This document shows positions 9,707 to 51,049 of a stretch of 64,000 nt of DNA, piece after piece (position 1 is the stretch's first letter; the number at the start of each line of letters is the position of its first letter). Location of the stretch: the NCBI GenBank assembly GCA_017387565.1, contig JAFOEY010000004.1, positions 1 to 64,000 of the forward strand. Reading direction: 5' to 3'. Under the pieces are notes generated by a model that did not search any database, had not been told where the DNA came from, and saw nothing but the letters and a program-made list of their open reading frames with translations. The position numbers and the translations under genes were made by a program. This DNA is from Lachnospiraceae bacterium (GTDB taxonomy: Bacteria > Bacillota > Clostridia > Lachnospirales > Lachnospiraceae).

Positions 9707-9752
9707 AATATTGGGTCAAAATACCTTTTGACTCAAACATCATATGAATAAA
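9707..9752 (+). repeat. Short derivative of the dispersed repeat (right-end module)
   Basis: ATTGGGTCAAAATACCTTTT followed by GACTCAAACATCAT matches the right terminal module of the 187-bp copy at 32847-33033. It forms an imperfect hairpin by itself (GGGTCAAAA / CCTTTTGACTC) and lies between mrnC and rlmB inside the operon. Confidence 0.75.
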
Positions 9753-12467: not shown

Positions 12468-12752
12468 AAAAAAATCTCCGACAGAAATACATCTGTCAGA
12501 GACGATAAAATCGCGGTTCCACTCTGTTTTCGACTGTTCTGCCCAAAGACAGATACTGCCGACACCTCAAATCCCTTAACGCGGGAAACGTGTTTTCATA
12601 CTAAATGACTAAATAGAAACATGGTTCCGAAAACAAGCTTACGGATGCACTTCCTAACTGCTCCTGCCGGGATTGCTTTCAGCCGGTGACATTCCCTCTC
12701 TGCTGCGCTCACAATTACTACTCTCTCCGCTCAACGCCTTTTGCTTTTTTCA
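12468..12752 (-). promoter_or_regulatory. T-box riboswitch with Cys (TGC) specifier controlling cysE-cysS
   Basis: Read on the minus strand, the T-box sequence AGAGTGGAACCGCG occupies 12525-12512, followed by a terminator stem TCTCTGACAGA/TCTGTCGGAGA (12502-12475) and seven T residues. Upstream lies a long Stem I region; GGAAGTGCATCC at about 12655-12643 offers the specifier TGC (12649-12647) followed by the usual A, a cysteine codon. Such leaders bind uncharged tRNA and switch from terminator to antiterminator. A Cys specifier fits the first two genes, cysE and cysS. Confidence 0.93.
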
Positions 12753-16426: not shown

Positions 16427-16474
16427 TGATATCATGAGGTCAAATTACCTTTTGTCTCCAACATCACGATATCT
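16427..16474 (+). repeat. Short derivative of the dispersed repeat (right-end module)
   Basis: GATATCATGAGGTCAAATTA plus CCTTTTGTCTCCAACATCA matches the right terminal module of the 187-bp copy (GGTATCATGGGAGCAAAATA...). It lies in the 5' region of the DUF4349 lipoprotein gene. Between here and 16630 there is only AT-rich DNA with an imperfect palindrome around 16564-16592. Confidence 0.7.
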
Positions 16475-25725: not shown

Positions 25726-25907
25726 ATATGGATTGCTACGCACTTTTCTCAATCCATGATATCAACGGATTGCTACGCACTTCGTACTCCCACAATCCGT
25801 AAACAATCGAAATCCGCCCTAATCGGGCTACTTTCTCATTTTGCGGATCCCAAAGTATATTTTTTCATGCGAGCATGAAAAGTATGACCTTTCAACCCTG
25901 ATATCAT
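25726..25907 (-). repeat. Dispersed intergenic repeat, copy C (rearranged right end)
   Basis: Reverse complement of copies A and B: left arm ATGATATCAGGGTTGAAAGG (25907-25888), the hairpin CATACTTTTCATGC/GCATGAAAAAATATAC, the GCCC-GATTA-GGGC module and GGATTGT...GCAATCC. Instead of the usual right terminal module it carries a second, shortened copy of the GGATTG...GTGCGTAGCAATCC hairpin. Base changes relative to A and B in the stems keep pairing through G-U, which hints at RNA-level selection or coincidence. Confidence 0.85.
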
Positions 25908-26394: not shown

Positions 26395-26420
26395 GCATGA
26401 CCTTTTGCCTCTGATATCAT
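26395..26420 (-). repeat. Minimal derivative of the dispersed repeat
   Basis: On the minus strand ATGATATCAGAGGCAAAAGG then TCATGCAATCC: the left terminal arm of the large repeat joined directly to its GCAATCC stem half, as from an internal deletion. The rest of the gap between 26210 and 26500 shows no gene. Confidence 0.55.
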
Positions 26421-32670: not shown

Positions 32671-32757
32671 CTTTTCTTTTTATTTAGCTTCCAAATCGAC
32701 TTTGTTTCTTGTTCTGGGCCTACTTAATAGCTTATTTGAATACACAAACTAAGAAAA

Positions 32758-32790
32758 AACGAATGGCAAAAACAACCATTCGTTTTATTT
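32758..32790 (-). terminator. Terminator downstream of the Fur-like gene
   Basis: CGAATGG/CCATTCG with a 9-nt loop; on the minus strand it is followed by TTTTTTCTT. On the plus strand the tail is TTTTATTTTAT, so it might work both ways, but there is no plus-strand gene upstream. Confidence 0.75.
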
Positions 32791-32846
32791 TATCATATTT
32801 ATCCCATTCCGTTAAGCATTTAAAATTCACAACCTTTTACGTATTT

Positions 32847-33033
32847 ATGATACCAGGGTCAAAAGGTCATACTTTTCATGCTCGCATGAAAAAGTATGAC
32901 TTTGGGACCCGCAAAACATGAGAAAGTAGCCCGATCAGGGCGGATTTCGATTGTTTACGGATTGCGAGAGCACAAAGTGCGTAGCAATCCGTTGGTATCA
33001 TGGGAGCAAAATACCTTTTGACCCCAACATCAT
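32847..33033 (+). repeat. Dispersed intergenic repeat, copy B (complete)
   Basis: The only full-length copy, 187 bp. Terminal inverted repeats are ATGATACCAGGGTCAAAAGG and CCTTTTGACCCCAACATCAT (imperfect). Internal modules in order: CATACTTTTCATGC/GCATGAAAAAGTATG hairpin, GCCC-GATCA-GGGC hairpin, and GGATTGC-GAGA-GCAC-AAA-GTGC-GTA-GCAATCC nested hairpin. It encodes no protein. Its right end lies 2 bp beyond the Fur-like stop codon. The family resembles a miniature inverted-repeat element or a structured REP-type repeat. Confidence 0.9.
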
Positions 33034-33035
33034 AT

Positions 33036-33470
33036 TTATGCTTCACAATCTTCTGTGCAATTATGATTTACAACCTTCTGTGTATTAACATAACCGCAAC
33101 ACCTCAGACCTTCTGATATTACCTTGTTCCACTCATCGGTCGATAGCCTGCAAATGGACTGATCATCCAATTCTACGATACACCCACCTTTCTTTTCGCA
33201 ATTCATGCCACAGGAAATGCGGTACATATTCTTACGGCTGATGGCACCGATTTCTTCCAAAAGATTGATCATGCGGTATACAGTTGCTGCTCCCAAGGAA
33301 GGATCTTTTTCCACCGCCTTATAATATATCTCCTTACAGCATGCACATTCTTCCTGCAATATAATGTCCAACAGAATCTTACGTTGTTTCGTTATTCTGC
33401 AACCATTTTCTTTTAGTCTCTGCAAAACCGTTTCTTTCTGCATATTTGTTCTGTGATAATTTGCTGTCAT
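33036..33470 (-). CDS. Fur-family-like regulator with atypical Cys-rich C-terminus
   Basis: 144 aa from the ATG at 33470, chosen because AAAAAAGGAC lies 7 bp upstream. The winged-helix half is Fur-like: LKENGCRITKQRKILLDIIL and the recognition region GAATVYRMINLLEEIGAI. The usual dimerisation domain with HHH and CxxC motifs is absent; instead there are Cys residues in ISCGMNCEKKGGCIVELD, RCCGYVN and NCTEDCEA. It is downstream of the FeoB-associated peptide and FeoB genes, on the same strand, so a role in iron or other metal sensing is plausible. Confidence 0.85.
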   Translation of the reverse strand: MTANYHRTNMQKETVLQRLKENGCRITKQRKILLDIILQEECACCKEIYYKAVEKDPSLGAATVYRMINLLEEIGAISRKNMYRISCGMNCEKKGGCIVELDDQSICRLSTDEWNKVISEGLRCCGYVNTQKVVNHNCTEDCEA

Positions 33471-35932: not shown

Positions 35933-36044
35933 TTCCTTATTCTTATATTCCTTATTCTTATATTCCGTATACTATATTTCGTATGCTATATTCCGTATGC
36001 CATATTTCGTATGCCATATTTCGTATGCTATATTCTGTATGCTT
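35933..36044. repeat. Tandem repeats in the feoA-feoB gap: 15 bp x 2 and 14 bp x 6
   Basis: TTCCTTATTCTTATA is repeated exactly at 35933 and 35948; then six 14-bp units like TATTTCGTATGCTA run from 35961 to 36044 with one to three differences each. Together with the operator they occupy most of the 353-bp gap between feoA and feoB; no gene is seen there. The repeat number could affect read-through from feoA to feoB. Confidence 0.9.
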
Positions 36045-36157
36045 ATAATCCCCATACTCTCATTCCAATGCGGAAATAATTTCTGATTATGATTCATGAT
36101 CATGATTTGGAGTTATGATTTAGATTTTTGATTTCTGCTTTTAATATCTTCATCTTC

Positions 36158-50438: not shown

Positions 50439-50608
50439 AATTCTTCTCCTTTGTCATTTGATTTTCCCTTTGAGAATGAATTCTTAGCTATTGAACGAAG
50501 TCAGACAATACACTGCTTAGACACTGTATAAAAAAAGACACTCCGATTTATCATAGCGTGCCTCTAGCTTACTTCCTGCAACTGGCTACCATACTGTAAT
50601 TTCAGGCC

Positions 50609-51049
50609 CTATAGCTTTGCGTCATACTCTTTCGGGTATTTTGCCGAATTTATATGCAATAAACTATTCAGCAATCCACCATTGCTTCCCACATGAAATT
50701 CTACTGTTTTATAAAACAAATCACTGCTTCCGATTGTGAGTACACTCATGTAAAGCATCATCTGCACCGTGTACAGAACTACTACTAAATAATGTTTGAT
50801 CTTGATTTTACATATCTCACAAATATTAAAAAAAATGAGCATTGGTGCAAAAATCCCTATAAGATATGTCAGCTTATTTGCCAAAATCGCCGTTTCCAAA
50901 CAAGTCGCGCTTGCTAAAGTATAATAACCACCATTACCAATCACTGTTATTATTATTAATAGGATTTGATTTATTTTCATATTTTCATTTATGGCAACAG
51001 ACCATAAAAAGATCAATACTGAAACCAAAAAGCAAACCAGATAAAGCAT
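50609..51049 (-). pseudogene. Truncated multi-pass N-terminal sensor domain (probable decayed GGDEF or kinase protein)
   Basis: 146 aa from the ATG at 51049 (AAGGAGATAATAATC upstream). Four to five membrane helices and the segment CLETAILANKLTYLIGIFAP, LTIGSSDLFYKTVEFHVG resemble the membrane sensor region of longer Lachnospiraceae GGDEF/kinase proteins, which continue with more helices and an output domain. Here the frame breaks off after GGLLNSLLHINSAKYPKEYD, and no output domain follows. I therefore take it as a truncated gene, though a short independent protein is possible. Confidence 0.6.

Follow-up and report, generated by a model that had tools for sequence, protein, structure and literature searches.

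Folded structure is a known property of bcr1, a repeat of the Bacillus cereus group, and REP/ERIC repeats are not known to carry a target duplication at each copy. bcr1 has also been linked to a 5-base motif, TTTAT, as described in PMC6542083. The RNA family RF01699 ("Clostridiales-1 RNA") was described from Clostridiales and the human gut (Weinberg 2010; PMC2864571), and the table on the motif in that paper marks it 'y' for RNA and 'n' for both cis-regulatory and switch, that is, as a probable RNA. Its Rfam type is 'Gene; sRNA'. Mobility is absent from the text of PMC2864571 available to us, unlike the element reported here, and we found no treatment of RF01699 as mobile in the titles and abstracts of the openly accessible literature searched.

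Results

We analyzed a stretch of 64,000 nucleotides from a Lachnospiraceae bacterium (the window, at its full length) and identified a full-length element of 185 bp, TGAT...ATCA, at positions 32848..33032 on the forward strand. Its ends were set by duplications across many copies, and here the exact 6-bp target duplication TATTTA occupies 32842..32847 on the left and 33033..33038 on the right. The first-pass annotation had drawn this copy at 32847-33033; the copy itself was real, while its outermost A/T belonged to the TATTTA duplication. We found three RF01699 matches in the window with cmscan, at 121.7, 98.8 and 77.7 bits (gathering score 48). The first is the core of the full copy (32848..33000, forward strand) and covers the whole RF01699 model, so that a family that the annotation did not recognise is one already catalogued in Rfam. 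The second is a decayed copy in reverse orientation that lacks the terminal hairpin (25754..25906, reverse strand; 91.0% identity by BLAST) and the third is a copy cut by the start of contig C2 (1..141, forward strand; 95.7%), both of which had been proposed from the sequence and aligned as such. The reverse copy carries an additional partial repeat of the third hairpin, and a shortened version of it is present in the related genome G008; this copy is the older one. Three short derivatives had also been noted, and we recovered two right-end fragments on the forward strand (16427..16466, E 5e-6; 9717..9742, E 1.8e-5) and a possible left-end fragment on the reverse strand (26397..26419) that was weak enough (E 0.03) to have arisen by chance.

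In the minimum-energy fold, the RF01699 core is closed by a stem (32848-32855/32993-33000) and holds three hairpins at about 32856-32910, 32914-32956 and 32957-32992. The element and RF01699 have the same sequence and fold, and the Rfam model ends at 33000, thereby omitting the right end and a terminal hairpin at 33002..33025 (forward strand; arms 33002-33011 and 33016-33025). This hairpin includes the right terminal repeat and was found in many copies from other genera. The minimum fold energy of the full copy was -84.8 kcal/mol, whereas 100 dinucleotide shuffles averaged -43.6 (sd 4.4) and went no lower than -59.6; the hairpin folding that had been proposed is beyond chance. The opposite strand likewise folds strongly (-73.0 kcal/mol). 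The terminal inverted repeats are TGATACCAGGGTCAAAAGG and TGATGTTGGGGTCAAAAGG, with a consensus of ~19 bp (TGATnnnRGGGTCAAAAGG). No ORF of at least 90 aa was found inside the element, in line with the earlier view that it encodes no protein, and the genes said to adjoin the copies were confirmed as encoding a Transgly plus Transpeptidase protein (PBP), an MCPsignal chemoreceptor and a FUR-family protein. The element is thus short (185 bp), multicopy (121 matches in 2.9 Mb) and apparently non-coding, as a miniature inverted-repeat element (MITE) should be. Two other structured RNAs lie on the reverse strand of the window, a T-box leader at 12495-12743 and a c-di-GMP-I riboswitch aptamer at 50574-50655.

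The family was not confined to the window. The host genome (G000; 2.9 Mb, 69 contigs) had 121 matches at E <=0.001, a count that was 115 in a less complete genus-wide run. Within the genus, matches occurred in four of nine genomes, namely the host, G002 (46), G008 (37) and G006 (15), and the other five had no RF01699 match. In a survey of Lachnospiraceae that scored at most nine matches per genome, 161 of 299 genomes had a match, 130 of them above the cut-off; counted by genus, the same sample gave 160 of 298. A class-wide sample gave matches in 16 of 391 genomes, 12 in the family of the host and four outside it (one weak). Eleven contig stretches, all from Lachnospiraceae or Lachnospira MAGs, contained an exact match to 34 bases of the left part. 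Similar DNA occurred at three places on one Butyrivibrio fibrisolvens plasmid (best 72.6% over 96%) and in three unannotated phage records from human faeces, one spanning the whole element at 70.8% and two spanning 29-38%.

Many host contigs start or stop inside a copy (e.g., C2:7-110 and C56:7-110), with contig-end copies also in C16, C19, C29:5-108 and C27, C30:6-130; near-identical copies seem to break the host assembly. Among the variants, a sister subfamily with the ends TGATGTAAGTGTCAAAAGT has a like general layout (L019:1501-1678, L039:1501-1679 and L112:3191-3301). A divergent RF01699 variant beginning TGATAATAACTCGC (L003:1501-1659 and L040:1501-1659) adjoins one common gtcccttacattg repeat in G000 and G002. 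Outside the family of the host, L235 (G680) and L243 (G461) each hold a tandem pair of overlapping RF01699 matches.

Exact 5- or 6-bp direct repeats lay immediately outside the TGAT/ATCA ends in 20 of the 24 full-length copies with both flanks (18/18 in the host genome and 2/6 in sister species; L021, without a right flank, was omitted), as against shuffle means of 0.9 (5 bp) and 0.5 (6 bp) for the same copies. Twelve other genera gave 36 duplications in 60 copies, spread over nine genera; applied to 2000 shuffles of the flanks, the same rule found 2.6 on average and never more than 9. The other 24 copies, including all of those from G278 (6), G117 (5) and G109 (1), had none. Pooling 57 copies yielded the target consensus A|TNNN(N)A|T. 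In the 36 five-base cases the first base was T in 97% and the last A in 92%, with a preceding A in 94% and a following T in 86%; the same four positions stood at 86, 86, 76 and 90% in the 21 six-base cases. Shorter derivatives of 92 and 103 bp each had a 5-bp duplication of their own. The suggestion that the repeats were of the REP/ERIC type fitted poorly, since copies have target duplications of their own.

Host contig C2 is collinear with contig C6 of G008 over ~140 kb (aligned blocks 81-98% identical), and a search for empty sites in close relatives, as had been recommended, found an element-free sister site for 11 of the 18 duplication-verified host copies. For 14 of these copies we searched the joined flanks in G002, G008 and G006, and for 10 the match ran across the junction in at least one sister genome. 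Nine of the 10 were aligned, at up to 97.5% identity and with the target present once, L026 and some others differing by indels of no more than 6 bases in or close to the junction; the tenth, L017, was taken from search rows without a base-by-base alignment. Only one flank was matched for L008, L010 and L015, and only short pieces for L028. The four remaining copies, all on C2, were instead compared directly with contig C6 of G008: one (132555-132739) gave a further clean empty site, one site was element-free and locally rearranged, and in two the flanks failed to align across the site. The window copy at 32848-33032 is absent from both G002 and G008. Its site in these species consists of short tandem repeats, with G002 having 28 extra bases, and we therefore call it element-free rather than a textbook empty site. 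In the sister sequences (window 32740-33100; G002 C28 ~200-400 and G008 C6 ~35950-36150) the order is TATTTA, TGATGCAA and TATTTA, which may be an ancestral repeat or an excision footprint.

We then asked what the copies say of the RNA. The alignment used for covariation comprised 20 diverse copies from 14 genomes, out of 112 oriented copies, and 27 of the 49 predicted pairs showed double-sided changes with pairing kept, so that the stems were conserved across genomes. On the Rfam strand, 38 mispaired cells across genera were G.U and 10 were A.C, with the reservations that cells are non-independent events and that the aligned copies were found with an RNA model, which favours G.U. A recount within the host genome, on 27 distinct full-length sequences chosen by DNA similarity from the fetched loci, gave 17 variant cells with G.U and eight with A.C, a fixed G.U pair being excluded. 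The G.U excess across genera is a sign, not proof, of selection at the RNA level. Genomes G628 and G461 belong to two other families of the class; their copies keep the internal loop ATGAG opposite CGAAT and have outer stems very unlike those of the host element. Most of the G628 and G461 copies also retain the loop of hairpin three, which varies in two of the three G628 copies. In G680, a genome from the family of G628, the ends resemble those of the host element. Taken as sequence comparisons, these patterns make a selected RNA function of the RF01699 core plausible.

A promoter-like sequence (TTGACA with at most two changes, 17 bases, TATAAT with at most one change) read into the left end of 18 of 112 copies, as compared with 3 of 63 true right ends and 38 of 1171 matched intergenic target sites. 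The background sites came from just two contigs, belonging to two species, and 46 of the 109 right sides had been placed at the Rfam model end rather than the true end. Such left ends occurred in all three genome groups (4/30, 4/22 and 10/60). When spacings of 16-18 were allowed, the counts were 23/112 at the left, 97/1171 in the background and 10/63 at true right ends; left and right thus became similar, and the difference between them depends on the exact 17-bp spacing. Off-register control spacings at the left gave 14/112 (12-14) and 12/112 (20-22). TATAAT was enriched beside the left end, and because this is partly due to the AT-rich target rule we used the matched-site spacing test instead. 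Outward hybrid promoters starting from the TTGAC of both ends showed no excess of -10 boxes at the 17-bp spacing. By a simple ORF rule, applied to the 48 of 52 loci with ORFs on both sides, the right neighbour was co-directional in 33; under the same rule 15 copies lay between divergent genes and two between convergent ones. We infer that transcription may start near the left end, and a promoter-proximal sense bias of the element is possible.

Both sets of results bear on whether the element is a plain MITE, whose stems would serve transposition or DNA folding only and whose RNA would be functionless in itself. MITEs commonly have inverted repeats and hairpins, which counts for this reading, as do the strong fold of the opposite strand (-73.0 kcal/mol), a host-genome ratio of G.U to A.C of just 17 to 8 and a promoter bias that needs exact 17-bp spacing (16-18 gives 23/112 left and 10/63 right). 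It accommodates less well the cross-genus G.U excess of 38 to 10, the ATGAG/CGAAT loop kept in G628 and G461 despite differing outer stems, and the 18/112 left ends with 17-bp-spaced promoters against a background of 38/1171, and we put its chances somewhat below even. A further reading, that the element is a mobile structured RNA riding host promoters, we regard as doubtful. The element would insert or survive in sense orientation, a short distance downstream of sigma-A promoters, and its transcripts would thus begin near the left end; the RNA core, which occurs with other outer stems in other bacterial families, would work either as a 5' leader or in trans, and IS1182-like transposases would have carried it through the whole bacterial family. 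We marked this reading down because left ends and true right ends barely differ at 16-18 bp spacing.

A transposase with matching ends had been named as something to look for, and we found one in relatives of the host, in the form of an IS1182-like insertion sequence (IS), and none in the host genome itself. The four genus genomes with matches held four DDE_Tnp_1 genes in three genomes; none was found in G002, which has 46 element matches. One of the loci, L256 in G006 (genus of the host), is a 1871-bp IS with a 546-aa transposase and the ends TGATTTAAGGGTCAAAAGG and TGATTTGAGGGTCAAAACC. The transposases of L256, L258 and L260 had DUF772 and DDE_Tnp_1_6, both above the Pfam cut-offs, and these are the typical domains of the IS1182 family. 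The best NCBIfam family for the three genes was IS1182 (NF033551), at 135.9 (L256), 120.8 and 126.4 bits; since all scores fall under the curated cut-off of 270, we use the name IS1182-like. Relatives (E 1e-30 or better) were found in 15 of the 299 Lachnospiraceae genomes. Both ends were present at six IS loci: L256, L258, L259, L261, L265 (shortened, ~1.05 kb) and L273. L256 stops at a contig end, and of the five loci with both flanks three had duplications by eye (TCAATA, TGACA and TAATA) and two, L261 and L273, had none. The exact end motif occurred 14 times in 23 IS1182-like loci, 12 of the occurrences being distinct (L273 and L279 overlap), was not found in 10 other transposase loci, and occurred eight times in 284 kb of host DNA, each time at an element end. 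At E 1e-30 or better, there was no IS1182-like gene in the host genome (69 contigs) or in G008. RF01699 was present in 10 of the 15 IS-bearing genomes versus 161 of 299 overall (counted by hand), which is no clear association. The shared ends argue that IS1182-like insertion sequences are likely drivers of the element.

Other candidates were set aside. Two IS1634-family genes (G000 and G008) and the DDE_Tnp_1 gene L254 (G000), which fell into no assigned family, had no matching ends. Pairs of element ends lying 0.3-5 kb apart were screened in G000, among the ends listed in fetched loci; the pair in L092 enclosed metabolic genes, that in L094 enclosed no recognisable transposase gene, and the remainder were weak or used ends common to adjoining elements. 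Exact end motifs paired at IS distance were not found in five relatives (two single-contig genomes being among those with hits). Integrase-type (rve) genes were sought in the four genus genomes, in a screen that also used one ISNCY model in seven genomes, and numbered two in G000 (IS30-like by eye) and one in G002; G006 and G008 yielded no rve gene. A transposon-like locus in G002 (L097; C25 ~84.4-87.7 kb) holds three genes, among them an integrase-type transposase and an ATPase-like gene, and matching ends were not found there. The TG...CA ends and 5-6 bp duplications do recall the IS1202/ISAjo2 group as presented in PMC10132070 and PMC10045372, and a short-duplication rve transposase of that kind could in principle be the driver in place of an IS1182-like one. 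Such a driver is improbable given that rve genes are so few and that the rve loci read had no matching ends, which the IS1182-like loci do have.

Discussion

We conclude, with a probability of about 0.8, that RF01699 in Lachnospiraceae is a MITE with a probable IS1182-like driver and a putatively selected RNA fold. The MITE idea of the first-pass annotation was borne out by inverted terminal repeats, target duplications, element-free sister sites and an IS with matching ends, and none of the outcomes it had named as counting against it (occurrence in the window only, unconserved stems, no empty sites) was observed. Mobility of the element is close to certain. This non-autonomous DNA transposon inserts at A|TNNN(N)A|T, duplicating 5 or 6 bp, and is broadly yet patchily distributed. 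In the mechanism that we propose, it would likely be moved in trans by IS1182-like DDE transposases (DUF772 plus DDE_Tnp_1_6). The Rfam strand would be transcribed, in part from host promoters directly upstream, and the fold of the resulting RNA would be under selection. An ordinary multicopy small-RNA gene family spread by duplication or recombination would suit the Rfam type 'Gene; sRNA', the listing as a probable RNA in the PMC2864571 table and the 27 of 49 pairs in which double changes preserve pairing, but it is highly improbable and already contradicted, as regards the Lachnospiraceae copies, by the exact 5/6-bp duplications at copy ends, the sister sites with the target once and the IS with the same ends.

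RF01699 itself was already known; what is new is that an orphan RNA family is here connected to a MITE and to a probable transposase. A family with no known function thereby acquires a way of spreading, a rule for its target sites and a probable driver. Annotations that treat each RF01699 match as an independent sRNA gene would have to be revised, and it becomes testable whether a selected RNA can be borne by a bacterial MITE that makes use of host promoters.

Among known systems, REP/ERIC repeats differ from the element, which has 5/6-bp duplications where those repeats are not known to have a duplication at each copy. IS1272, which is listed in the IS1182 family, has inverted-repeat ends and a related transposase family, as does our candidate driver; unlike the element, it replaces inverted-repeat targets without duplication according to PMC5678879. 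The ISMac2-related MITEs of Methanosarcina acetivorans come close in length (160-169 bp) and in having an IS1182-family partner (PMC3852290), whereas their hosts are archaeal and the direct repeats, as the column in that source appears to read, are 4 or 0 bp rather than 5-6. bcr1 resembles the element in being dispersed, short, multicopy (11 to 130 per genome) and endowed with mobile features, as given in PMC6542083. By description, the two differ in their hosts, and it is the element that has 5/6-bp duplications at A|TNNN(N)A|T and an IS with matching ends.
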